Virus record (IMG/VR): IMGVR_UViG_3300045454_000141
Span: 1 to 42,415 of that record
Direction: 5' to 3' (one strand)
From: a virus
Length of the DNA: 42,415 nt
Shown here: positions 540 through 42,415 of the stretch, piece after piece
Layout: the number at the start of each line of letters is the position of its first letter
Numbering within the stretch: position 1 is the first letter of the stretch
Position numbers and translations under genes: made by a program
The notes under the pieces: model-generated
What the model was told of the DNA's origin: nothing
What the model saw: the letters and a program-made list of their open reading frames with translations, nothing else
Databases searched by the model: none

Positions 540-1331
540 TTACAAGCTCCGGCCGACCCATTTGACGCGGCCGATGACACGGACCGGTTCGATCATAGGC
601 ACTTCCTCCTCGTCCGGGTAGAGGTCGCGGTTGTCTGCCCGCATAAGTAGGCGGCTACCGAGCCGCCGGAGCCGCTTCACGAGCACCTGATCGCCGATCG
701 AGAAGACGTAAATCCGACCGTCGATGATGTCGGTGTCGCCGACATCGACCAGCAGTGGCTCGCCGTCCTCGATCGTCGGCCGCATCGAATCGCCAGCGGC
801 GTAAAGAAGGCGGGCATTCTGCGGTCGCACACCCGCGCGCTCCAGTGATTCGTTGGCAAATGGAACGGTACGTTCCTCATCGTCCCGTATTGAAGCGCCA
901 CTGCCAGCCGAAGCCTGAAAAGCCAAAAGGCGGACAAAGACGGTTTCCTGACCCTCTTTCTGGACAAATTTGTCCGCGTCCGGGTGCTGCCCAAGCACCA
1001 AATAGCTCTCAGGAATGTCGGTTACTTCGCAAATTCTAAGCAGGATTTTGAGCGGCACATCCTGCCCTTCTACGTAGCGCCAGAATTGCTTGATCGAACG
1101 TCCGATCAGCTCCTCTATCTCATTGTCTTCGTGTTCAAAAATTAAGACAAGCCACGCGAAGACAAGCCTTTCCTGCAAGGACAGATCGCAGCTGTTTGGC
1201 AGCTTCCTGCTCATCGCTGCTGCCCGCATGTCGAGATAGCGGGCCTTGTCGATCCCGAACTCTCCAATCCGGACCTCAGTAGCCTTCTCACGCCGCTGGC
1301 GCGGGACAGATTTGTCTTGACGAACGGACAT
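540..1331 (-). CDS. LexA/S24-type phage repressor (Mu c functional analogue)
   Basis: This is probably the lysogeny repressor. The N-terminal half (about residues 40-115) looks like a helix-turn-helix region. The C-terminal half is a peptidase S24 domain with nucleophile Ser in GDSMRPT, the general-base Lys in VLVKRL, and an ASAGSG segment typical of the hinge or cleavage region of such repressors. It is divergent from the Ner-like gene, as in Mu. The start is uncertain: the ATG at 1331 has no visible ribosome site and overlaps an operator-like palindrome, so a leaderless message or an internal start (Met35 or Met40) is possible. An S24 domain suggests induction through RecA-stimulated self-cleavage, which the classical Mu repressor does not use. 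Confidence 0.87.
   Translation of the reverse strand: MSVRQDKSVPRQRREKATEVRIGEFGIDKARYLDMRAAAMSRKLPNSCDLSLQERLVFAWLVLIFEHEDNEIEELIGRSIKQFWRYVEGQDVPLKILLRICEVTDIPESYLVLGQHPDADKFVQKEGQETVFVRLLAFQASAGSGASIRDDEERTVPFANESLERAGVRPQNARLLYAAGDSMRPTIEDGEPLLVDVGDTDIIDGRIYVFSIGDQVLVKRLRRLGSRLLMRADNRDLYPDEEEVPMIEPVRVIGRVKWVGRSL
962..975. promoter_or_regulatory. Internal operator-like palindrome GGACAAATTTGTCC
   Basis: This is a perfect 14-bp palindrome inside the repressor gene. It matches the two imperfect copies at 1304-1316 and 1326-1338 (GGACAnATTTGTC) beside the repressor start. An additional repressor site within the coding region, used for looping or autoregulation, is inference. Confidence 0.45.
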
Positions 1332-2862: not shown

Positions 2863-3315
2863 ATGGCCCCGCGCCGCCGCGACACCGCCACGATCGATTT
2901 GTTCCGCGAGTACGAACCGACGCCAGTCGTGCGCCGGTTCGACGACGAGGAGATCAAGGCATGGAGCGCGGCGCGGCGGTTGGCGCGGGCGATCTCAGCG
3001 GCGCTCGACGGTTTCAAGCGTGACGAGATTGCTGCGGCGATGTCCGAACAACTCGGCGAAACGATCTCGAAGGCGACGCTCGACGCTTACGCCTCTCCGG
3101 AGAAGCCGCACGCCATTCCCGCGCATCGGCTCGCGGCCCTCGTTGCCGCAACTGGCGACGAACGGCTGATCAACGCGCTGCTGGGCGACCTCGGATTGAT
3201 CGCGGTGCCGGCGAAGTACGAAGCGCTGCTCAAGCGCGAGCGCGCCCGAGAGTTGAAGGAAAAGCTGGAGCGCGAAGAACAGGCTGCCGATGCCCAATGG
3301 AGGGCGTCGCGATGA
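2863..3315 (+). CDS. Conserved hypothetical protein upstream of the transposase
   Basis: The 150-residue protein has an acidic/basic N-terminus, a helical DNA-binding-like middle (about residues 35-105: SAALDGFKRDEIAAAMSEQL, then AIPAHRLAALVAATGD), and a highly charged C-terminal coiled coil (RERARELKEKLEREEQAAD). The middle resembles regulators in which a helix-turn-helix is followed by an HRLAALVAATGD segment. The stop overlaps the MuA start (ATGA), so the two are translationally coupled. The same small gene commonly precedes muA in related phages. A transposition or regulatory accessory role is inference. Confidence 0.75.
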   Translation: MAPRRRDTATIDLFREYEPTPVVRRFDDEEIKAWSAARRLARAISAALDGFKRDEIAAAMSEQLGETISKATLDAYASPEKPHAIPAHRLAALVAATGDERLINALLGDLGLIAVPAKYEALLKRERARELKEKLEREEQAADAQWRASR

Positions 3316-5507
3316 AGGAGTGGTGCACCGCGCGCGAGCTGGCCGAGGCGCAACTACCTGGATTGCCGGCCACCGAGAGCGCGCTGATCCGCTTTGCTGG
3401 CCGCGAAGGCTGGAACGACAGCCTCGCCTATGTCCGGCGCCGCTCCGGCCGCGGTGGCGGTCTCGAATACAACATTTCGCTGCTGCCGCCTTCGGCGCGC
3501 GTCGAATTTGAGCGTCGGCATCGCGCCGTTCTGGCGCCGCAGCCCGTCGAAGCGCCAACTGCGGCGCAGCCGGCCGAAAACCTCAGTGAGCGCGCCGCCA
3601 AGGAGCGTGATGCGCGCCTCGCCATCGTTGCCGCCTTCGCCGCTTTCGGCCGCGGCCAGCGGCTCGGCAATGCATCGCGCTCGAAGATCTTCGTGGACGC
3701 CTACAACGGCGGCACGCTGATCATCGACGCCTGGATCCGCGAGATCATTCCGCATCTGTCGCCCCGATCGCTGGCCCGCTGGGTCAAGGCCAAGCGCGAG
3801 GGTCGTTCGAACAACCTCGCTGTCGACCGTGCTAAGGCCCGCAAGGGCAAGGGTGTGCTCGACATCGCCTGCGACGGCAAAGTCCGCACCTATCTGCTGG
3901 CGCTGATCGCTCACAACCCGCATCTGTCGGCCCAGCACCTTCGCGCGCTGATCCGCTCCGAGTTCGGCGACCAATTGGTGATGCCGAGCGGCGAAGTGGT
4001 CGAAGTGCCGCCGGTCCGTACGCTCCAGCACTACGTCGCCAAGCTGAAGGACGAAGAACGCGTCGCGCTCACCAAGCTGTCGAACCCCGATCGCTATCGC
4101 TCGACCATGGCGCCCTCCGGCGTCGGCACCTATCGGTGGGTCAGCGATCCGAACACGCTGTGGATGATCGACGCCTCGCCGGTCGATGCGCTGTGCATCG
4201 ACGGTCGCCACTCGATCTATGCCTGCATCGACATCGCGACGCGCCGCACGAAGTTCTACGTCTCGCGCACCCCGCGGGCCTCGGCCGTCGCGCTGCTGAT
4301 GCGCAAAGCGATCCTTGCTTGGGGCGTGCCGGAGACCGTCAAGACCGACAACGGCTCCGACTTCGTCGCCAACGACACCAAGCGCCTGTTCGCTTCGCTC
4401 GGAATCCAGGTCGAGCTGTCCGATCCGTACTCGCCGCAGCAGAAGGGCCACGTCGAGCGCGTCATCAAGACCTTCCAGCACGACTGCGCCACCCTGTTGC
4501 CGGGCTTCATCGGTCACAACGTCGCCGATCGGAAGCGGATCGAGGACCGCAAGAGCTTCGCCAATCGGCTCGGCGAACAGACCGCTGAAACGTTCGGCGT
4601 TTCGCTCACCGGCGCCCAGCTCCAGGTCTATGTGGATCAATGGACCGACACCCTTTACGAGCAGCGGACGCACTCGGCTCTCGGCACCTCGCCGATGCTG
4701 GCTGCTGCTGCCTCGCGGGCGCCGATCAAGACTGTCGATCCTCGCGCGCTCGACCTGCTGCTGATGCCGGTCGCCGAAGGCGGTGGCATTCGAACCGTCA
4801 CCAAGTTCGGCATTCGGGTCGATCACTTCCACTACGTCATCAACGAAGCGTTCCCCGGCGACCGCGTGCTGGTCCGCCATGACCCGAACGATGCCGGCCG
4901 CATCATCGCGTTCGATGCCGACAGCGGCGCCTATGTCGGCGACGGCATCTGCCCGGAGCTGGCCGGCGTCGACCCGGCCGAGCTGCAGCGAGCCAAGAAG
5001 GATTTCACGGCGCAGTACTACGAGGAAAAGACGCGCCCGATCAGGAAAGAGATCAAGAAGCTCACCAAGGGCCCGGCGCTGCTCGATCGCGTGCTCGAGG
5101 TCGGGCGCCGCGATATGCCGAACGTGATCGCGCTGCCCAAGCGCGAAGAAACGCATTCGACCCCGGCGATCGCCGCCGCGCTCGACGCCATGGTGCCGAA
5201 GGAAGCGCCGGCACCGGCAGCCGATGTGCTGGCGATGCAGGCGAAGCTGATCGCCGACGAGACCGTGGTGCCGCTGCGCACCGAAGAGACGCCGCATCAG
5301 CTCTGGCAGCGCGCGCTCGACGTGATCCGGCGGCTGCGAGTCGGCCAAGCTGTGGAGCCCGAAGAGCTGATGTGGCTCGGCGGCTATCGCGAAGGACCGG
5401 ACTATCAGGCTCGTGCGCTGATGTTCGGCGACCCGATGGAAACGGAAAAACCCGCCGCGTCCTGGACCGACGCGACGGGTCAACAATCAACTTACGAAGG
5501 AGCATAA
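3312..5507 (+). CDS. muA: MuA-type transposase (DDE recombinase)
   Basis: It catalyses strand cleavage and joining at the phage ends during integration and replicative transposition. The N-terminus (WCTARELAEAQLPGLPAT) is the Mu-type winged-helix DNA-binding domain. The RNase H-like core carries the triad Asp287 (WMIDASP), Asp346 (KTDNGSDF) and Glu382 (GHVERVIKT), placed much as in Mu A. A beta-barrel region and a charged C-terminal tail that would contact MuB follow. At 731 residues it is somewhat longer than Mu A (663). ATG 3312 is preferred over 3297 because GGAGGG precedes it and it overlaps the previous stop. It ends 1 bp before muB. Confidence 0.97.
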   Translation: MKEWCTARELAEAQLPGLPATESALIRFAGREGWNDSLAYVRRRSGRGGGLEYNISLLPPSARVEFERRHRAVLAPQPVEAPTAAQPAENLSERAAKERDARLAIVAAFAAFGRGQRLGNASRSKIFVDAYNGGTLIIDAWIREIIPHLSPRSLARWVKAKREGRSNNLAVDRAKARKGKGVLDIACDGKVRTYLLALIAHNPHLSAQHLRALIRSEFGDQLVMPSGEVVEVPPVRTLQHYVAKLKDEERVALTKLSNPDRYRSTMAPSGVGTYRWVSDPNTLWMIDASPVDALCIDGRHSIYACIDIATRRTKFYVSRTPRASAVALLMRKAILAWGVPETVKTDNGSDFVANDTKRLFASLGIQVELSDPYSPQQKGHVERVIKTFQHDCATLLPGFIGHNVADRKRIEDRKSFANRLGEQTAETFGVSLTGAQLQVYVDQWTDTLYEQRTHSALGTSPMLAAAASRAPIKTVDPRALDLLLMPVAEGGGIRTVTKFGIRVDHFHYVINEAFPGDRVLVRHDPNDAGRIIAFDADSGAYVGDGICPELAGVDPAELQRAKKDFTAQYYEEKTRPIRKEIKKLTKGPALLDRVLEVGRRDMPNVIALPKREETHSTPAIAAALDAMVPKEAPAPAADVLAMQAKLIADETVVPLRTEETPHQLWQRALDVIRRLRVGQAVEPEELMWLGGYREGPDYQARALMFGDPMETEKPAASWTDATGQQSTYEGA

Positions 5508-5508
5508 G

Positions 5509-6279
5509 ATGACCGCAACTACCAATGCCGTCAAGGGTGGGCAGGTTCCGCTGAAGAACGTCGCGTCGTTCATGACGCTGACGCTGCGCCTGCAAAGCCG
5601 CGAACCGCACCTGCCGAGCTTCGGCGTGTTCTACGGCCCCAGCGGCTTCGGCAAGACCGAGGCGAGCATCTATGCGCAGAACAAGACCAACGCGGTGCGG
5701 GTCGAAGTCGGCGAGACGTGGTCGATCAAGAAGCTGCTGCAGGAGCTGCTGTTCGAACTACGCATCCAGCCCAAGGGCACGATCTCCGACCTCGCCGATC
5801 AGGTGAAGGCCGCGCTCGGCGATGATCCGCGCCGCCCGCTGATCATCGACGAAGCCGACAAGTTGCTGCGCAAGGGCGGCATGCTGGAAGTGATCCGCGA
5901 GATCGGCGACGTCGCCGGCTGCCCGGTGATCCTGATCGGCGAAGAGATGCTGCCGGAAAAGCTGGCGGTGCACGAGCGCTTCCACAACCGCGTGCTCGAC
6001 TGGACCGGCGCCGAGCCGTGCGACCAGGAGGACGTCGCGGCGCTCGCGGCGGCGCTGTATCGCGGCGTGACGATCGCGCCGGACCTGCTGGCGGAGATCG
6101 CGCGCCAGTCGGACGGCCGCGCCCGCCGCATCTGCACCAATTTGGACGAGGCGATGAAGGTCGCCCGCAACAAGGGGCTGAAGACCGTCGATCTCGCAGC
6201 CTGGGGCGGCACCAAGTTCAACACCAACAAGCCGCCGAGCGCGCGCTACATCACCGCCGCCCGGCGTCGGAGCGCATGA
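5509..6279 (+). CDS. muB: MuB-type AAA+ ATPase, transposition target selector
   Basis: It binds target DNA as an ATP-dependent filament, stimulates the transposase and gives target immunity. Walker A is GPSGFGKT at residues 43-50 and Walker B is LIIDEAD at 111-117. The EEM and RARRICTN segments fit sensor positions. Its 256 residues compare with 312 in Mu B. The missing length is at the N-terminus, where Mu B has an extra helix-turn-helix. It lies directly after muA and overlaps the next gene by four bases. Confidence 0.95.
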   Translation: MTATTNAVKGGQVPLKNVASFMTLTLRLQSREPHLPSFGVFYGPSGFGKTEASIYAQNKTNAVRVEVGETWSIKKLLQELLFELRIQPKGTISDLADQVKAALGDDPRRPLIIDEADKLLRKGGMLEVIREIGDVAGCPVILIGEEMLPEKLAVHERFHNRVLDWTGAEPCDQEDVAALAAALYRGVTIAPDLLAEIARQSDGRARRICTNLDEAMKVARNKGLKTVDLAAWGGTKFNTNKPPSARYITAARRRSA

Positions 6280-6932: not shown

Positions 6933-7312
6933 GCCAGCCCGTCAAGCGCGATCCGCTCGACGTCGCCAGGGAGTCCTGGGGCGACGACATGCCAGCCTGG
7001 GTGGAAGCCCTGGCGCGCGAAGCCAGCCAGACCACCAGCGTCGCAGCCGCCGATCGGATCGGTTACTCCGGCCCGGTGGTGTCGAGCGTGCTCGCCAACA
7101 AGTACAAAGGCCGGCTCGACAATGTCGAAGCCCGCGTGCGCGGCGCGCTGATGGGCGAGATGGTGGATTGCCCGGTGCTGGGCGACATCGCCCGCGACCG
7201 CTGCATCGACGAGCAGAAGGTCGGCTTCTCGACATCTTCCTCGGTGCGCGCCCGCATCTATCGCTCCTGCCGCGCAGGCTGCCCGCACTCGCGCATCGGG
7301 GGGAAGTCATGA
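6929..7312 (+). CDS. Helix-turn-helix protein with Cys motif
   Basis: The 127-residue protein has a helix-turn-helix around TTSVAAADRIGYSGPVVSSVLANKY (about residues 36-58). Its C-terminal half carries four spaced cysteines: MVDCPVLG, ARDRCID, RSCRAGCPH. The layout recurs in small regulators of alphaproteobacterial prophages. The cysteines could bind zinc or an iron-sulfur cluster; this is inference. GAGGAGG precedes the start, which overlaps the previous stop (ATGA). Confidence 0.78.
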   Translation: MSQPVKRDPLDVARESWGDDMPAWVEALAREASQTTSVAAADRIGYSGPVVSSVLANKYKGRLDNVEARVRGALMGEMVDCPVLGDIARDRCIDEQKVGFSTSSSVRARIYRSCRAGCPHSRIGGKS

Positions 7313-7944
7313 CGATCGTCGCGGTCGCCCACCGCCACATCTCGGTGCGCCTGATCATCTTCGCGGTCGCCGACAGCTTCGGCGTCAGCGTGCAGGATAT
7401 GCGGGCCCGGCGGCGGGACGGAAAGGTGTATCATGCGCGCGCAGCGGCTTGCCTTTTGGCGCGCGAGCTGACCGGCCGCACCTATCCGCAGATCGGCCGG
7501 GTGCTCGCCGGCCGCGATCACACGACGATCATTCATGCCGTCGAGCGGGCTCGCGAGATGCTGGCCAGCGACGACGATTTCAAGCTCGCTTACACGGCCG
7601 CAAAAATGGCCGTCGAAACCATCGCCGCCACCAAGCTGGCCGAGCTGCTGCGTGACGACGAGCCGGTGACGATCGCCGCACGGATCTGCGAGTACCCATC
7701 TCAGGCCAATCGCGTCTCGACCTGGGAGATCATCTCCATGGCGGCGCGCCTCGTTGCGCTCGAAGAGCTCGCGGCCGACGCCTTCAAGCTGCTGGCCGAT
7801 CTCGATCTGCTGGTCGACCAACCCGCGTCGGCGCTGGACCTGCGCGGGCCGCTCACCTCTCGCATCACCTCCGTTGCCGAGTCGCTGGCAGCGCTCGGCT
7901 ACGTCGAAACGAACTCACCGCAAGGAGCTGACCATGCTCTGTGA
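7309..7944 (+). CDS. Protein with a DnaA domain IV-like DNA-binding region
   Basis: Residues about 17-90 match the DnaA C-terminal domain that binds DnaA boxes: VADSFGVSVQDMRARRRDGKV, a helix with LLARELTGRTYPQIG, and the signature GRDHTTIIHA at 68-77. The AAA+ domain of DnaA is absent. The remaining 120 residues are helical and unassigned. It starts with an ATGA overlap in the early operon. Possible roles are steering host replication proteins to transposition intermediates or blocking the host origin. Both are inference. Confidence 0.85.
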   Translation: MTIVAVAHRHISVRLIIFAVADSFGVSVQDMRARRRDGKVYHARAAACLLARELTGRTYPQIGRVLAGRDHTTIIHAVERAREMLASDDDFKLAYTAAKMAVETIAATKLAELLRDDEPVTIAARICEYPSQANRVSTWEIISMAARLVALEELAADAFKLLADLDLLVDQPASALDLRGPLTSRITSVAESLAALGYVETNSPQGADHAL

Positions 7945-10378: not shown

Positions 10379-11112
10379 AAAAGCCCCGCGGCTCCAGCGC
10401 CGTGATGGCGCAGCGGCAGGCGATCACTGCCGAGCAGATCGAGGCCGACCCGCGGGCCGACCTCGACTTCATGCCGACGCCGCCATGGGGCACGCGCTCA
10501 GGCCTACGCTACGTGATGCGGATCGATCCGCAGATCGGTCGACATCTCACCTGCTGGGACCCGTGCTGCGGAGAAGGCCATATGGCAGAGCCGCTGAAGG
10601 AGGTGTTCGGAAGGGTCTATGCATCCGACGTTTATCCGCACGGGTACGGCGCGGTCGGGTCGTTCGTCGGTGTCGATGGCCTCGGCCTCGGCGATTTGGC
10701 TCAGTGCCCGTTCAAGCCTGACTGGATCATTGCTAACCCGCCCTTCAAGCTCGCGCACAGCTTCGCGATCAGGGCGCTGGAAGAAGCAAGCCGGGGCGTT
10801 GCGCTGCTTCTGCGATTGCAGTGGTTGGAGTCGGAGGAACGCTACAATCTTTTCAGTCGGTTCGAACCGTATTGCATGGGCATCTTCGCCGAGCGGCTCG
10901 CGATGGTTCGATATGTCTGGGACCCCAAAGCCAGGTCGGCGACCGCCTATGCGTGGTTCGTCTGGACGCTTCCGACGTGGCCGGCCCGCGGCGAGACACC
11001 GACGTTTCCGACCATCGTCATTCCCTACGGCTGCAAAGCGCAGTTCACCTTGCCTTCCGATTATCGGCTCGCGAAGCCCTGCACTCCCCAACTGATCGGA
11101 GCCCAGCAATGA
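10375..11112 (+). CDS. Early DNA methyltransferase, probably N6-adenine type
   Basis: The 245-residue protein has an S-adenosylmethionine-binding motif I, WDPCCGEGHM, at 61-70. An acidic VYASDVYP strand end follows, then the catalytic motif IV IIANPPF at about 118-124. NPPF/NPPY chemistry fits transfer to an exocyclic amino group, most likely adenine N6. It starts by ATGA overlap, is transcribed early and ends coupled to gemA. Protection of phage DNA against restriction is the likely use; target sequence unknown. A second, late methyltransferase lies at the right end. Confidence 0.82.
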   Translation: MKKPRGSSAVMAQRQAITAEQIEADPRADLDFMPTPPWGTRSGLRYVMRIDPQIGRHLTCWDPCCGEGHMAEPLKEVFGRVYASDVYPHGYGAVGSFVGVDGLGLGDLAQCPFKPDWIIANPPFKLAHSFAIRALEEASRGVALLLRLQWLESEERYNLFSRFEPYCMGIFAERLAMVRYVWDPKARSATAYAWFVWTLPTWPARGETPTFPTIVIPYGCKAQFTLPSDYRLAKPCTPQLIGAQQ

Positions 11113-17942: not shown

Positions 17943-19400
17943 ATGAGCCTCGTGACATTGCGCGCGCCCGGCGAGGTGAAGCCGGGCCCGATCGTCGGGC
18001 CGGTGTCGGGGCAGACCTATACGCTCGGCGCCGACCGGCTGCTGCAGGTGCAGCATTCCGGCGATGCGATCGCGCTGTACGGGCGGGGCTGGATCGCCCC
18101 GTTCGGGCGTACACCCGAGATGCTCGCGGCGATGCTGCCGGCCAGCGACACGCTCGCGCTGCGGCAGGTGCGCAGCATGTCGGGCGTGCTCCGCGTCGGC
18201 GCGCTCGGGCACAGCTTCATCGCCAACGCGCGGCACACCAACGGCTGGACGAACAACGGCTACATGTCGTGGCTGCGGCGCTACTGCGGCTCGCGCGTCG
18301 AGCTGCCGATGTCGAACCTGTTCGCGACCGGCGGCCTGAAACAACACGAGATCATCGCCGAGCACCTGCCGGCGGCGCTCGCGGCCGGCCTGGACGTCTG
18401 CGTCGTCGACACGATCCGGAACTCCATCGGCGCCAGCATCGACGGCGTGCCGATCTCGACCGACAGCCTGATCGCGGGTCAGCGCCAGATCCTCGACAGC
18501 CTGACCGCACGCGGGACGATCTGCCTCGTGCATCCGGTGCTTGCCGCGTCCGGCGCCTATCTGCTCGCCGGCGAGGCGCTGCTGCAGGCCTGCGCGCTGG
18601 AACGGTTCCAGGCCGATTACTGCCGCCTCAACCCGCGGGCGATCTTCGTCAATGTCAACCCGCTGGTCGCCGACTTTGGGACTGGTCTCGCGGTATCCGG
18701 GATGCTGTCGGACAATCTGCACCCCTCCGTCGCCGGCGCGATGAAGCTCGGTTACGCGGGCGCCCAGATCATCAATCAGTTCGCCGCGCCGATGGACGAT
18801 CAGCACACGCTGATCGGGGATATCTACGACGCTGCGAAGAACCCTTCGGGAAACCTGCTGGTCAACGGCCTGATGGCCGGCGCCGGCGGGTTCGAACAAG
18901 GCGGCGTCACCGGCGAGACGCCGGACGGCTGGGTCGCGCAGGGCGGCTCGTCGACCACGCTCACGATGTCCAAGGTCGCGGTGGCTGGCCGCGCCAACCT
19001 CACCAGGGCGCGCATGACGCTCGGCGGCGCCGCCGACAGCGTGCAGCAGATGCTGTATCAGCAGGTCGACGATGCCAAATATGCCGCCGGCGACGTGCTG
19101 CGGGGCATGGTCGAATGCGAGTGGAGCATCACCGGCGGGTCTTTATCGGAAATCAGCCTGACGGTGCTGGCCATGAACAGCAGCTTCGGCGTGCTCGGCC
19201 AGTGGGTCGACGGAGTCGACAACGGCACCGGATATTTTCCGACCGGCGCATCCGGGCCGATCAGCTTCCGCACCGAGGATTTCGCGCTGCCCACCGGAAC
19301 GGCCTATCTGATCTTCCGGCTGCATGCCGTCGCCGCCGCGGGCGCGCCGGTCGCCACCGTCGACTGGGGTCGCGCCAGCTTGCGGAAAGTGAGGCACTGA
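17943..19400 (+). CDS. SGNH/GDSL-type hydrolase with C-terminal carbohydrate-binding-like domain
   Basis: This is probably a carbohydrate or ester hydrolase. Block I is VGALGHSF with nucleophile Ser91 (GHS in place of GDS). The oxyanion Gly is in FATGG near 130, the Asn in VVDTIRNS near 160, and the final pair DNLHPS supplies Asp257/His260. Residues about 300-485 start NLLVNGLMAGAGGFEQGG and read as a beta-sandwich of CBM type. It is inserted between terminase and portal, genes that are normally adjacent in Mu-like phages. It may de-esterify host surface polysaccharide as a virion part or during release; both are inference. No signal peptide is seen. Confidence 0.8.
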   Translation: MSLVTLRAPGEVKPGPIVGPVSGQTYTLGADRLLQVQHSGDAIALYGRGWIAPFGRTPEMLAAMLPASDTLALRQVRSMSGVLRVGALGHSFIANARHTNGWTNNGYMSWLRRYCGSRVELPMSNLFATGGLKQHEIIAEHLPAALAAGLDVCVVDTIRNSIGASIDGVPISTDSLIAGQRQILDSLTARGTICLVHPVLAASGAYLLAGEALLQACALERFQADYCRLNPRAIFVNVNPLVADFGTGLAVSGMLSDNLHPSVAGAMKLGYAGAQIINQFAAPMDDQHTLIGDIYDAAKNPSGNLLVNGLMAGAGGFEQGGVTGETPDGWVAQGGSSTTLTMSKVAVAGRANLTRARMTLGGAADSVQQMLYQQVDDAKYAAGDVLRGMVECEWSITGGSLSEISLTVLAMNSSFGVLGQWVDGVDNGTGYFPTGASGPISFRTEDFALPTGTAYLIFRLHAVAAAGAPVATVDWGRASLRKVRH

Positions 19401-19401
19401 G

Positions 19402-20991
19402 ATGGCTCGATTGCTCGGACCCGATGGCCAGCCGATCGACGCGTCGCTGCTGTCACAGGAGGTCGCGACGCCGACCACGATCGGGGTGCGCGCGGTGCAT
19501 CACGAGCGCGTCGCCTCCGGCCTGACGCCGGAGCGGCTCGCCTATGTGCTGCATCAGGCGGCGAACGGCTCGGCGCGCGATTACCTGACGCTGGCCGAGG
19601 AGATGGAGGAGCGCTATCTGCACTACGCATCCCAAGTGCAGACCCGGCGGCTGGCGATCGAGGGCGTGACGCCGAGCATCAAGGTGCCGCAGGGCGTGTC
19701 GACCAAGATCGCCGATTTCGTGCACGAGCTGGTCGATGATCCCGGCTTTCACGACGCCACCGGCCTGCTCACCGACGGCATCGCCAAGGGCTATGCGGTG
19801 ATCGAGCCGATCTGGGAATACGAGCGCGGCGCGCTGCGCCCGGTCACCTACAAATGGCGCGACCAGCGGTTCTTCCAGTTCGATCCCGTCAACCAGACCG
19901 AGCTGCGGCTCGCGGTCGACGGCAGCCTGGAGGGCGAGCCGCTGGCCAAGCCGACCTTCATGGTTCACGCGCCGCGCACCAAGGCGGGAATCCCGATCCG
20001 CCGCGGCTTCGCGCGCGCCGCCGCCTGGGCGTTCCTGCTGCAGAGCTTCGCGCTGAAGGACTGGAGCGCGTTCGCCGAGATCTACGGCATCCCGCTGCGG
20101 CTCGGCCGCTATCATGCCGGCGCCAGCGAAACGGACAAGAAGGCGCTGCTTCGGGCGGTGCGCGACATCGCCGCCGATGCCGCCGCGATCATTCCGCAGG
20201 GCATGGAGCTGGAATTCGTCGAGACCAAGGGCCAGCGCGGCGAAGCGGTGTTTGGCTCGCTGCTCGACTATCTCGACAAACAGGTCTCGAAGCTGGTGGT
20301 CGGCCAGACCATGACGGCCGACAACGGCTCGTCGATGGCGCAGGCCAAGGTGCACAACGAGGTCCGCCTCGACATCCAGCGCGCGGACGGCCGCCAGCTC
20401 GCCAACACCGTCAACCGCGACCACATCGCCTGGGCGGTCGCGATGAACTTCGGACCGCAGCCGGTCTATCCGAGCGTCGAGTATCCGGTCGCAGAACCCG
20501 AAGACACGAAGTCGCTGGCGGACGGCGTCGCCAAGCTGGTGCCGCTCGGCCTGCGCGTGTCGCAAACGGAGATCCGCACCAAGTTCGGCCTTTCCGAGCC
20601 CGGCGAGAAAGACGAGCTGCTGACGCCGCCGCGCAGCGGCCAGGACGTCGTCGCCGCCAACGATGCCCCGACGCCGAAGGCGGCGCGGCTGTCGGCCGGC
20701 GATTGCCGCTGCCCGGCCTGCGGCGGCACACGCACCGCCACGCTCGCGGCCGATCCGGCGGCCGAGGCGGACGAGCTCGACGAGCTGGTGGCGGACGCGA
20801 TGGCCGATTGGGAGGAGTTGGTCGACCCGCTGCTGGCGCCGCTGCGCGAGGCGGTGGCGCGGGCATCGAGCTTCGACGAGCTGCTCGCGATGATGCCGGA
20901 GCTGGCCGCCGAGGTCGACGGGAGCAAGCTCGCCGACGCGCTGGCGCGGCTCACCGCCAAGGCCCGCGGCCTCGGCGACGTGAAGGACTGA
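19402..20991 (+). CDS. Portal protein, DUF935 (Mu gp29-like)
   Basis: It forms the dodecameric head-tail connector through which DNA passes. Recognised by family pattern: VHHERVASGLTPERLAYVL, LAEEMEERYLHYASQVQTRRLAIEG, KGYAVIEPIWEY, the long helix KDWSAFAEIYGIPLRLGRY, and GQTMTADNGSSMAQAKVHNEVR. At 529 residues it is the normal length. The C-terminal region has a CRCPACGG cysteine cluster, possibly a zinc site, and an acidic helical tail. Confidence 0.94.
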   Translation: MARLLGPDGQPIDASLLSQEVATPTTIGVRAVHHERVASGLTPERLAYVLHQAANGSARDYLTLAEEMEERYLHYASQVQTRRLAIEGVTPSIKVPQGVSTKIADFVHELVDDPGFHDATGLLTDGIAKGYAVIEPIWEYERGALRPVTYKWRDQRFFQFDPVNQTELRLAVDGSLEGEPLAKPTFMVHAPRTKAGIPIRRGFARAAAWAFLLQSFALKDWSAFAEIYGIPLRLGRYHAGASETDKKALLRAVRDIAADAAAIIPQGMELEFVETKGQRGEAVFGSLLDYLDKQVSKLVVGQTMTADNGSSMAQAKVHNEVRLDIQRADGRQLANTVNRDHIAWAVAMNFGPQPVYPSVEYPVAEPEDTKSLADGVAKLVPLGLRVSQTEIRTKFGLSEPGEKDELLTPPRSGQDVVAANDAPTPKAARLSAGDCRCPACGGTRTATLAADPAAEADELDELVADAMADWEELVDPLLAPLREAVARASSFDELLAMMPELAAEVDGSKLADALARLTAKARGLGDVKD

Positions 20992-29736: not shown

Positions 29737-30391
29737 AGCCGTCGCGGCGATCGCGCCGCTCGCCGACGCCATCGCCGAGCGCGGCGGCATCACCACCAAG
29801 CTTGCGCGGGCCGTGTTCACGGCCGAGCTGGCGCGGCTCGCGGCGATCGACCCGACCGTGATCGCCCGCATCTGGAATCCCTGGAGCTGCCCGGCGGCGC
29901 TGCTGCCCTGGCTCGCGCAGGGCGTCTCCGTCGACGTCTGGTCGGACGCCTGGCCCGAAGCGACCAAGCGTGCGGTGATCGCCGCCTCGCCGGATGTACA
30001 CCGCAAGAAAGGCACGATCGGCGCGGTGCGGAAGGCGCTCGCCGCCTTCGCGCTCGACGCGACGATCGTCGAATGGTGGCAGGATGATTCCCGGCGCGGC
30101 ACCTTCCGGATCGATATCCTGTATCGCAGCGGCGGGCCCGCGTTCGATCCTACGACTCAGGCCTATGTGATCGCAGCCGCGTCGGCCGCCAAGCCGAAGA
30201 GCCGGGTTCTGACGGTGCGGGCCATCATGCCGGCACGCGCCACGCTCGGCGTCGCCGCCTTCGGCCGCACCCAGATCATCGCCACCGCGCATCCGTATCT
30301 GCTCACACCGCCGGTGCTGCGCGCGACCAGCGTCGTTGCCGCCACCGCAGCCTCCATCATGTCCGCCACCGCTCATCGCAAGGCAGCCTGA
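29723..30391 (+). CDS. I: Tail protein I (P2 gpI-like)
   Basis: The 222-residue protein has CPAALLPWLAQGVSVDVWSDAWPEATKRAVIAASPDVHRKKGTIGAVRKAL, a close match in pattern to P2 gpI (LPWLAWALSVDxWxxxW, HRxKGT). It links the baseplate to fibres. The C-terminal part after about 150 is Ala/Thr-rich and less typical. Confidence 0.9.
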   Translation: MTPSEAVAAIAPLADAIAERGGITTKLARAVFTAELARLAAIDPTVIARIWNPWSCPAALLPWLAQGVSVDVWSDAWPEATKRAVIAASPDVHRKKGTIGAVRKALAAFALDATIVEWWQDDSRRGTFRIDILYRSGGPAFDPTTQAYVIAAASAAKPKSRVLTVRAIMPARATLGVAAFGRTQIIATAHPYLLTPPVLRATSVVAATAASIMSATAHRKAA

Positions 30392-30395
30392 CACC

Positions 30396-32150
30396 ATGCC
30401 GCAGACCTCGTTCGCGCTTCTCACGAATCTCGGCCGCGCCAAGGAAGCCGCGGCGCTGGCCAACGCCACCACGATCGAGATCACCCATATCGCGATCGGC
30501 GACGGCGCTACGGTGCCGAGCGGCGGCGAGACAGCGCTGTATCACGAGGTCGCCCGCAAGACGATCTCGGGCCACGGGACCGTGGCGGGCGCCGACAACG
30601 TCGCCTATTTCGATTGTTATCTGGCGGCGGCGGACGGGCCTTATACGATCCGTGAAGCCGGCCTCTACGACGCCGATGGCGACATGATCGCCATCGCGCA
30701 TTACGACCCGCCGATCAATAAGCCGGTGCCGTCCTCGGGCCAGACCGTCGAAGGCACGGTGCGGCTCGAAGTGGCGTTTTCGAACATCGCCACCGTGGTA
30801 ATCGTGGTCGACCCGTCGATCCAGGTCGCGCTGCAGCGGCTGACGCGGCTGCCGTGGATCCCGATCAACGCGCTGCATCAGAACGATCCGCCGGCCTCGC
30901 CGGCGGTCGGCGACGCCTATGTGATCGGGCCGGCCCCGACCGGCTCTTGGACCGGCCACGCCGGCAAGCTGGCGGAGTACACCATCGCCGGATGGGCGTT
31001 GATGGCGCCGCCGGATGGCCACGGCGTCGGCTTGCCGGACGGCAGCGTGCATGTCCGTATCGCTGGCTCCTACGTCGAGCGCGGTCAGGTCAAGGCCGCG
31101 ATCACGCGCTCCGGGCTGAGCTTCGCTCCATCCGACCAGGAGCAGCTCGCCAAAGCGGTGCGCTCACAGCGCCTCAACTGGGTCGGCAATTTCGGCGGCA
31201 CGGCCGACGCGCTGACCTGCACGATCGATCCCGCGCCGACGTCGTTGGCGCTCCTCGTCGGCATGCCGATCCGCGGCATCTTCCCGGGCGCCAACACCGG
31301 ACCGGTGACGCTGCAGGTTGGCGAGCTGGCGGCGGCGGCGGTGACGTGGCCGGACGGCACGGCACTCAGACGAGGAGATCTGAGGGCGGCCGAAGGAGAG
31401 GTCGTGTACGACGGTGTCGCATATCGGCTGATGACGATCGTGTCGCCTGGCCTCTTTGCTGCGCCGATCGTTCCGATGTATCCCGACGTGACAGGCAGCT
31501 CGGGAATTCTGGCGGTGACCGCAGGCGCTGGCCAAATCGTTGTGACCGCCGGGCAGAGTTGGATTTGGCGAGGGCTTTCGCTGATCTCGACCGATGAATT
31601 TTCGGTCGAGTCGCGTACTTTCGCGACCGTCTCGTCGAAGACTTATCATCTGGTGTGGGATGCGGCGGGGACAGGGCAAGCCATCCCATCGTCGACGTAT
31701 CCGCATGGGCGGATCTCGCTGATCGACCGAACCGGAGCAAGCCCGGTCGAGACGGACGCATCGTACGATACCACCTTCGATCGAATGCTGATCGCGCGTG
31801 TCGTGACGAACTCCTCGAACGTCTCGACGGTCACGTCGCTCGTCAACAAGGATCGCTTGCAGGCCGAAGCCTCACGGTCCATCGCTCAAGCAAGTTGGGT
31901 TCAGGTCGGGGCAACTGCGACCTACAACGCGTCCGACAGTTTCACCATTTGGTGGAGCCGCACCCCGAAGGTGATGTTCGGCTATGTCGAGGAGTGGTCG
32001 AACGAAGCCCAGGGGAGCGCACTTGGTCTCGGCGGGGCAGACTATGACAGGGTGATATCTTCGACCGTTACTCGGTACGGGTGGTCGGCGTCATTGACCT
32101 TTGATATGCGAGAGGCCGCGATCGGCTATCGCGTTCTGATGATTGCGTGA
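30396..32150 (+). CDS. Tail fibre protein (gpH-like N-terminus, DUF2793-like middle)
   Basis: The 584-residue protein has residues 1-155 as the tail-collar/DUF3751 attachment domain: FALLTNLGRAKEAAALAN, ITHIAIGDGATVP, IREAGLYDADGDMIAIAHYDP. Around 175-225 a DUF2793-type module follows (NDPPASPAVGDAYVIGPAPTGSWTGHAGKLAEYTIAGWALMAPPDG). The C-terminal half is beta-rich, with codon use shifting to lower GC after about 31.4 kb, and is likely the receptor-binding part. That shift suggests acquisition by recombination, common in phage fibres. Confidence 0.87.
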   Translation: MPQTSFALLTNLGRAKEAAALANATTIEITHIAIGDGATVPSGGETALYHEVARKTISGHGTVAGADNVAYFDCYLAAADGPYTIREAGLYDADGDMIAIAHYDPPINKPVPSSGQTVEGTVRLEVAFSNIATVVIVVDPSIQVALQRLTRLPWIPINALHQNDPPASPAVGDAYVIGPAPTGSWTGHAGKLAEYTIAGWALMAPPDGHGVGLPDGSVHVRIAGSYVERGQVKAAITRSGLSFAPSDQEQLAKAVRSQRLNWVGNFGGTADALTCTIDPAPTSLALLVGMPIRGIFPGANTGPVTLQVGELAAAAVTWPDGTALRRGDLRAAEGEVVYDGVAYRLMTIVSPGLFAAPIVPMYPDVTGSSGILAVTAGAGQIVVTAGQSWIWRGLSLISTDEFSVESRTFATVSSKTYHLVWDAAGTGQAIPSSTYPHGRISLIDRTGASPVETDASYDTTFDRMLIARVVTNSSNVSTVTSLVNKDRLQAEASRSIAQASWVQVGATATYNASDSFTIWWSRTPKVMFGYVEEWSNEAQGSALGLGGADYDRVISSTVTRYGWSASLTFDMREAAIGYRVLMIA

Positions 32151-41171: not shown

Positions 41172-41438
41172 ATGGAGGACTACCGCTGCGCGCGATGCCG
41201 CGCGCTGCTGTTTCGCGCGGCCGGCCGAGCGATCGCCGGGCCCGTCGAGATCAAATGCCGGCGCTGCGGCGCCATCAACATCCTGAGGCCGACAGAGCCC
41301 TCAACCGAGCGCCACGAGCGTCCGACCTCAGGAGAGGCCGAATGTACGTCAAGCGCCGCCGGATCGGCCCGGCAACCGTTTATCTCGGGGACTCGCTCGA
41401 AATCCTCCCGGCCCTCGAACCGGTCGGGGACATCCTGA
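41172..41438 (+). CDS. com: Com-like zinc-finger translational activator
   Basis: The 88-residue protein begins MEDYRCARCRALLFRA, then EIKCRRCGAINILRPTEPSTERHE, a close pattern match to Mu Com: RCKNCNKLLF and IRCPRCKRHI, with the conserved EHPTEKH-like stretch. In Mu, Com binds mom mRNA and opens a hairpin covering the mom ribosome site. Here the gene overlaps the following methyltransferase by 97 bp in another frame, and a hairpin covers that gene's ribosome site. The 30 residues past GEAE are Ser/Arg-rich and dictated by the overlap. The 156 bp upstream hold no gene and no clear dyad. Confidence 0.85.
   Translation: MEDYRCARCRALLFRAAGRAIAGPVEIKCRRCGAINILRPTEPSTERHERPTSGEAECTSSAAGSARQPFISGTRSKSSRPSNRSGTS
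41281..41341 (+). promoter_or_regulatory. Translational switch hairpin over the methyltransferase ribosome site
   Basis: TCCTGAGG at 41281-41288 is perfectly complementary to CCTCAGGA at 41326-41333, which includes most of the AGGAG ribosome site (41330-41334) of ATG 41342. An alternative small hairpin, CCTC 41326-41329 with GAGG 41334-41337, puts AGGA in its loop. Either fold could be the target of Com. Confidence 0.55.
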
Positions 41439-41728
41439 CCGACCCGCCTTATTCGAGCGGCGGCAACGTCAGGGACCGCGCCGCCGCGACCTCGGCCAAG
41501 TACCTCAGCCCCGATCATCCGCCTTATCCCGAGTTTCAGGGCGACACGCGCGACCAGCGGTCCTTCCTCGCCTGGTCGACTCTCTGGATGGGCCGGGCAC
41601 GGGCGCTCACGCGGCCAGGGGCGATGCTGGTGTGCTTCTCCGATTGGAGGCAGCTCCCGGTCACCAGCGACGCGCTGCAGTGCGCCGGCTGGGTCTGGCG
41701 GGGGATTGTGCCCTGGGACAAGACGTAG
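41342..41728 (+). CDS. N-terminal half of the interrupted methyltransferase
   Basis: A 128-residue product ends at the TAG. It holds the catalytic DPPY motif and the strand LTRPGAMLVCFSDWRQLP but not the AdoMet-binding motif, so alone it should be inactive. GGAGAGG precedes the ATG, inside com. Confidence 0.6.
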   Translation: MYVKRRRIGPATVYLGDSLEILPALEPVGDILTDPPYSSGGNVRDRAAATSAKYLSPDHPPYPEFQGDTRDQRSFLAWSTLWMGRARALTRPGAMLVCFSDWRQLPVTSDALQCAGWVWRGIVPWDKT

Positions 41729-41758
41729 GGCTCACGCCCTCAGAAAGGCCGCTACAGG

Positions 41759-42070
41759 GTGCAGGCCGAATATGCCCTGTGGGGGAGCAACGGGGCCCGA
41801 CCGGCGGTCGGTCCGGTTGCGCCGGGCGTCTTCCGGATGTCGGTGCCGAAGATCAAACACCACGTCGCCGGCAAACCGGTCGACCTGATGCTCGGGCTGA
41901 TGAGCGTGCTGGAGGGACCGATCCTCGACCCGTTCATGGGCTCCGGCACAGTCGGCGTCGCCTGCGTCCAGCGCGGGATTCCCTATGTCGGGATCGAGGT
42001 CGACCCGACCTATTTCGAGATCGCTTGCGGGCGCCTGGAAGAGGCCGTTAAAGGCGGGGGGATCAAATGA
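41759..42070 (+). CDS. C-terminal half of the interrupted methyltransferase
   Basis: The same frame resumes. The first possible start is GTG 41759 (VQAEYALWGSNG), without a clear ribosome site. It carries HHVAGKPVDLMLGLM and LDPFMGSGTVGVACVQRGIPYVGIEVDPTYFEIA, the AdoMet pocket. Split methyltransferases can work in trans, but nothing here shows that. Confidence 0.5.
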   Translation: MQAEYALWGSNGARPAVGPVAPGVFRMSVPKIKHHVAGKPVDLMLGLMSVLEGPILDPFMGSGTVGVACVQRGIPYVGIEVDPTYFEIACGRLEEAVKGGGIK

Positions 42071-42079
42071 GGAGCGCCC

Positions 42080-42415
42080 GTGTCGGACAAGCCCGCCGGC
42101 CTAACCCTGCGTCAGGTCCGCCACCCGGCCGTCGAGCCTGGACAGGCGTTCCGCGTCGTGTCCGGCACCGTGGAGGTCGGCTCCATCGGCCTGCAACAGG
42201 GCGCGCAGCAGAGGCGGTTCTGGTCATGGGGGATCGACGTGTTCGAGCCGGTCCCGTTCCCGACCCACGGGGAGACGGACAGCCGCGACCAGGCCATGGC
42301 CGACTTCCGGGCGGCCTGGGAGCTGTTCGCCGCCGACCCGCTCAGGTTGGAGCGGTTCTTCCAGTCCCGGGCGGCGATCAAAGAGCGCATGAAGCTGTGG
42401 CGGCCCGTCGACTGA
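42080..42415 (+). CDS. Conserved hypothetical protein at the right end
   Basis: The 111-residue protein has a GTG start after GGAG. A beta-rich N-terminal half contains RRFWSWGIDVFEPVPFPTHGE. A helical end follows (ADFRAAWELFAADPLRLERFF). Similar small proteins with a WxWGID motif occur widely in Bradyrhizobium-type genomes. Function unknown. It is the last gene before the window ends at its stop. Confidence 0.7.
   Translation: MSDKPAGLTLRQVRHPAVEPGQAFRVVSGTVEVGSIGLQQGAQQRRFWSWGIDVFEPVPFPTHGETDSRDQAMADFRAAWELFAADPLRLERFFQSRAAIKERMKLWRPVD

Follow-up and report, generated by a model that had tools for sequence, protein, structure and literature searches.

The closest counterpart of the locus described here is the com-mom pair of bacteriophage Mu, in which a Com-type zinc-ribbon gene lies directly upstream of the modification gene, overlapping it, near the right end of the genome. 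In this regard, a paper on Com and RNA (PMC6483171) makes no mention of methyltransferases, and among the papers searched we found none that deals with Mu-like phages pairing com with a methyltransferase. The same arrangement occurs in the window (the whole 42,415-nt stretch of DNA analysed here), where the gene behind com carries an in-frame stop codon. Very probably this stop is a nonsense mutation of recent date that hit a dispensable accessory modification gene, in a Mu-like phage that is otherwise intact.

A MuA transposase, a MuB ATPase and Mu-type head genes mark the window as a transposable phage of the Mu type. The genes that identify it include the following:

540..1331, minus strand: CI-like repressor with an S24 peptidase domain
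3297..5507, plus strand: MuA-type transposase (rve, Mu-transpos_C, HTH_Tnp_Mu_1)
5509..6279, plus strand: MuB-like AAA ATPase (TniB/AAA)
19402..20991, plus strand: Mu-type portal protein (Portal_Mu)

Further Mu-like matches are to GemA and to the Mu F and I proteins (Phage_Mu_F and Mu-like_Pro). Its relatives include prophages of bacteria from soil and water, Rhodopseudomonas among them, and a close relative sits in a Rhodopseudomonas contig; both ends of the record itself fall within phage ORFs and it carries no flanking host DNA, so that the "lysogen" of the original prediction is presumptive. A phage protein with a DnaA C-terminal helix-turn-helix domain (PF08299, 2.1e-20) is encoded at 7303-7941. 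A 485-aa ORF with a weak GDSL-hydrolase match lies between the terminase and portal genes (17943-19400); it has no listed match in three collinear relatives and is perhaps an added cargo gene.

The com-methyltransferase pair lies at the right end of the phage:

41172..41438, plus strand: Com-type zinc-ribbon gene, 88 aa (PF10122 Zn_ribbon_Com, phrog_6417, phrog_13819)
41342..42070, plus strand: interrupted DNA methyltransferase gene, beta-type amino, with the motif order DPPY ... FMGSG
41342..41725, plus strand: 5' part, 128 codons, the catalytic DPPY half, with WDKT as last residues
41726..41728, plus strand: in-frame TAG, where all viral homologues have glutamate (GAG/GAA)
41729..42067, plus strand: 3' part, 113 codons, the target-recognition region and the SAM-binding FMGSG half

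The Com-type gene matches PF10122 with 27.2 bits (cut-off 22.9), and its two phrog families are a translational regulator (phrog_6417) and gpCom (phrog_13819). It overlaps the start of the methyltransferase gene by 97 nt, in another frame. When 51 related loci were scanned with a profile of this Com, 19 of them (about 16 distinct) had a match ahead of the methyltransferase, including all 14 of the viral loci that most resemble the window. The order with com before the methyltransferase, in mom's place, is conserved in the window (41172-41438) and in loci L002-L015 and L041-L045. The methyltransferase probably takes the place of mom, and such a gene arrangement suggests that it is under the control of Com, which, by analogy with Mu, may switch on its translation. 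The com-methyltransferase junction is conserved, and its consensus fold showed neither a hairpin with covariation nor compensatory pairs. Just ahead of the methyltransferase start, the conserved stretch GAGCGCCnCGAGCGTC (41306-41340) can form a small hairpin, and it also codes for conserved Com residues. Directly behind the methyltransferase, a 111-aa ORF (42080-42415) ends exactly at the record end; it has no family match and is absent from the relatives' loci compared.

The methyltransferase frame ends in a TGA (42068-42070) and contains a sole internal stop, the TAG at codon 129 of 243. When the frame is read through with X at the stop, it matches PF01555 (N6_N4_Mtase) with 67.8 bits (cut-off 26.7), its halves falling on separate parts of the profile (4-83 and 160-219). 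Taken alone, the 5' half scores 21.1 bits, below the cut-off, and the 3' half 39.2. Both halves also match adjoining, non-overlapping parts of phrog_67. Since intact homologues reach up to 90% identity across 237 residues of the read-through, the frame is no chance ORF. The DPPY motif occupies residues 34-37 and DPFMGSG residues 196-202, which leaves FMGSG past the TAG. In an AlphaFold2 model built on the family alignment (mean pLDDT 80.7), the stop falls between predicted strands 118-126 and 143-149, ahead of the SAM-binding half, and neither piece is a complete methyltransferase. Because of the TAG at codon 129, the frame does not encode a single uninterrupted polypeptide; the gene is therefore a broken copy of an N6_N4_Mtase member and presumably yields no working enzyme.

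The 38 viral relatives (from 37 contigs, with some near-duplicates) all have glutamate (GAG or GAA) at the TAG position, and none of them shares the stop. An alignment of 32 sequences (the window and 31 relatives) shows no variation at residues W125, D126, K127, T128 and E129, where E129 in row 1, the window, is our own reading of the TAG. Homologues reading across the codon with glutamate confirmed what the original prediction had proposed, a single in-frame TAG splitting one methyltransferase with DPPY and FMGSG motifs. Its proposal of a one-base change from GAG also agrees with the five closest relatives (75-90% identical), which all have GAG at codon 129, and for this reason such a change is the simplest origin of the stop. 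A stop in L013, considered as a possible shared lesion, was rejected, as it is the normal end of the L013 gene.

A sequencing or assembly error in a gene that is really intact is another explanation of this codon: one base suffices to explain the TAG, the rest of the gene looks selected, and a search of viral contigs found no near-identical second copy around codon 129, and no second copy with the TAG. However, substitution errors are uncommon in assembled isolate genomes and nothing in the record suggests poor quality, and we regard an error as unlikely.

Comparison with three close relatives gave dN/dS values of 0.10-0.17 before the stop and 0.12-0.16 after it, similar to those among the relatives themselves (0.05-0.16). 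Third codon positions hold most of the substitutions on both sides of the TAG, the differences from G004 by codon phase being 5/38/10 upstream and 7/34/8 downstream. At codons where the three relatives agree and the window differs, 15 changes are synonymous and 5 alter the amino acid. A rough Poisson bound, a guide only that takes these changes to have arisen on the window's branch and sets the background dN/dS at 0.13, places the unconstrained share of that branch below ~15%. Because dN/dS is ~0.13 and the third-position bias holds on both sides, the full enzyme was under selection until recently. Unless full protein is still being produced, the stop is of recent date; as an argument against a recent knock-out, continued production would likewise give a low dN/dS past the stop.

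Amber readthrough or suppression, yielding some full-length enzyme as a form of dosage control, would fit a downstream half selected up to the recent past, and a suppressor tRNA could lie in the host genome. This reading is nevertheless very improbable, as the stop occurs in none of the relatives and the window holds no tRNA gene and no Rfam match at gathering thresholds. In addition, TAG closes at least six other genes of the phage exactly where those of the relatives end, and so it functions here as a regular stop. A more elaborate version, in which some readthrough of a leaky amber, perhaps added to control by Com, would give a low methyltransferase dose late in lytic growth from a gene that is not dead, is hardly credible either. 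An enzyme made of two assembling pieces, with the downstream half restarted (e.g., at GTG 41759), appears extremely remote. Two-subunit methyltransferases are known in general, the stop separates the catalytic and SAM-binding halves, and a 103-aa ORF begins at that GTG; however, restarting there loses the invariant E129, R132, P133, G136 and R139, the valine at the GTG is not conserved, no well-placed ribosome-binding site precedes it, and no relative is split in such a way. Readthrough and a split enzyme, even when taken together, are possible but unsupported and have little chance of being correct.

Phase variation by reversible mutation fares no better. Although phase-variable methyltransferases exist in bacteria, the change is a plain substitution without a raised switching rate and no relative carries the stop; since the sequence around 41726 contains neither a homopolymer nor a tandem repeat, this reading is without support and we give it almost no credence. 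Among the three readings originally offered for the stop, phase variation and amber readthrough were thus set aside and decay was retained, as a recent event, in line with the low dN/dS and third-position substitutions on both sides and with the lack of any other broken gene among those compared.

In this line, the phage otherwise looks intact. Three relatives (G004-G006) are collinear with the window and have genes matching its own, and comparison with them found no other interrupted gene; all three agree in showing the methyltransferase as interrupted. A scan of the relatives' ORFs for internal stops in the window returned mostly out-of-frame ORFs of GC-rich DNA, and it covered the genes with a listed match in these relatives, which the tail-fibre gene (30336-32150) lacks, as does the GDSL-like gene. 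The strongest candidate breaks, at 10719/10734, 11924 and 15442, were rejected, as the phase of the substitutions indicated an intact window ORF or no coding signal. An intact remainder is as expected when the broken gene is one required only in hosts that restrict.

Altogether, we propose that an orphan DNA amino-methyltransferase gene, situated at the right end of a Mu-like phage just behind a com-type gene that overlaps its start, a position like that of mom in Mu, has undergone a recent single point mutation from an invariant glutamate codon to TAG. Translation would halt after residue 128, giving a product that has the catalytic half but lacks the SAM-binding half, so that the modification activity has almost certainly been lost. 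By analogy with Mu, the most likely role of the methyltransferase is to methylate the phage DNA during late lytic growth, shielding it against host restriction, where the label "late", already given in the original prediction, would derive only from the right-end position of the gene in a Mu-like map. Such a lesion is ordinary, as a phage can do without its modification gene wherever it encounters no matching restriction enzyme.

A related case of decay is found in Rhodopseudomonas palustris 2.1.18, which contains a copy of the methyltransferase (L051, 9996-10709) with 85% DNA identity across the gene. This copy has no start codon, a one-base insertion (frameshift) near codon 120 and a TAG near its end. 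It has no com, the homology starts right at the gene start, and blastn revealed no other parts of the window phage in the surrounding 20 kb. The relic is also broken, but by lesions different from that of the window, and decay of the methyltransferase gene has thus occurred independently elsewhere, in that instance in a relic.

With respect to characterized enzymes, the top PDB match by sequence is M1.HpyAVI (5hek, 2.4e-31), and a Foldseek search with the predicted fold returned CcrM and M1.HpyAVI as top PDB matches (6pbd, 5hfj, ~1e-14). M1.HpyAVI, CcrM and M.RsrI share with the window enzyme both the fold and the placing of DPPY ahead of FxGxG; the window enzyme differs from them in its low identity (~18-26%), in being an orphan phage gene and in being interrupted. 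Much closer are the Mu-like prophages of Rhodopseudomonas and Rhodoplanes (L002/L042, L003, L004 and L005/L041), whose methyltransferases are 90, 88, 87 and 76% identical to that of the window, respectively (tblastn). They keep the same com-methyltransferase order and overlap, but their methyltransferases are intact whereas the window copy is interrupted, and the window phage would be of use as a natural minus-modification control against these relatives. Compared with Mu itself, where the modification gene encodes Mom, the gene of the window encodes an N6_N4_Mtase methyltransferase, here interrupted. Mu-like phages of Rhodopseudomonas-type hosts keep a Com-type regulator before such a methyltransferase, and these pairs allow one to ask whether the Com-type translational control described for mom reaches other genes.
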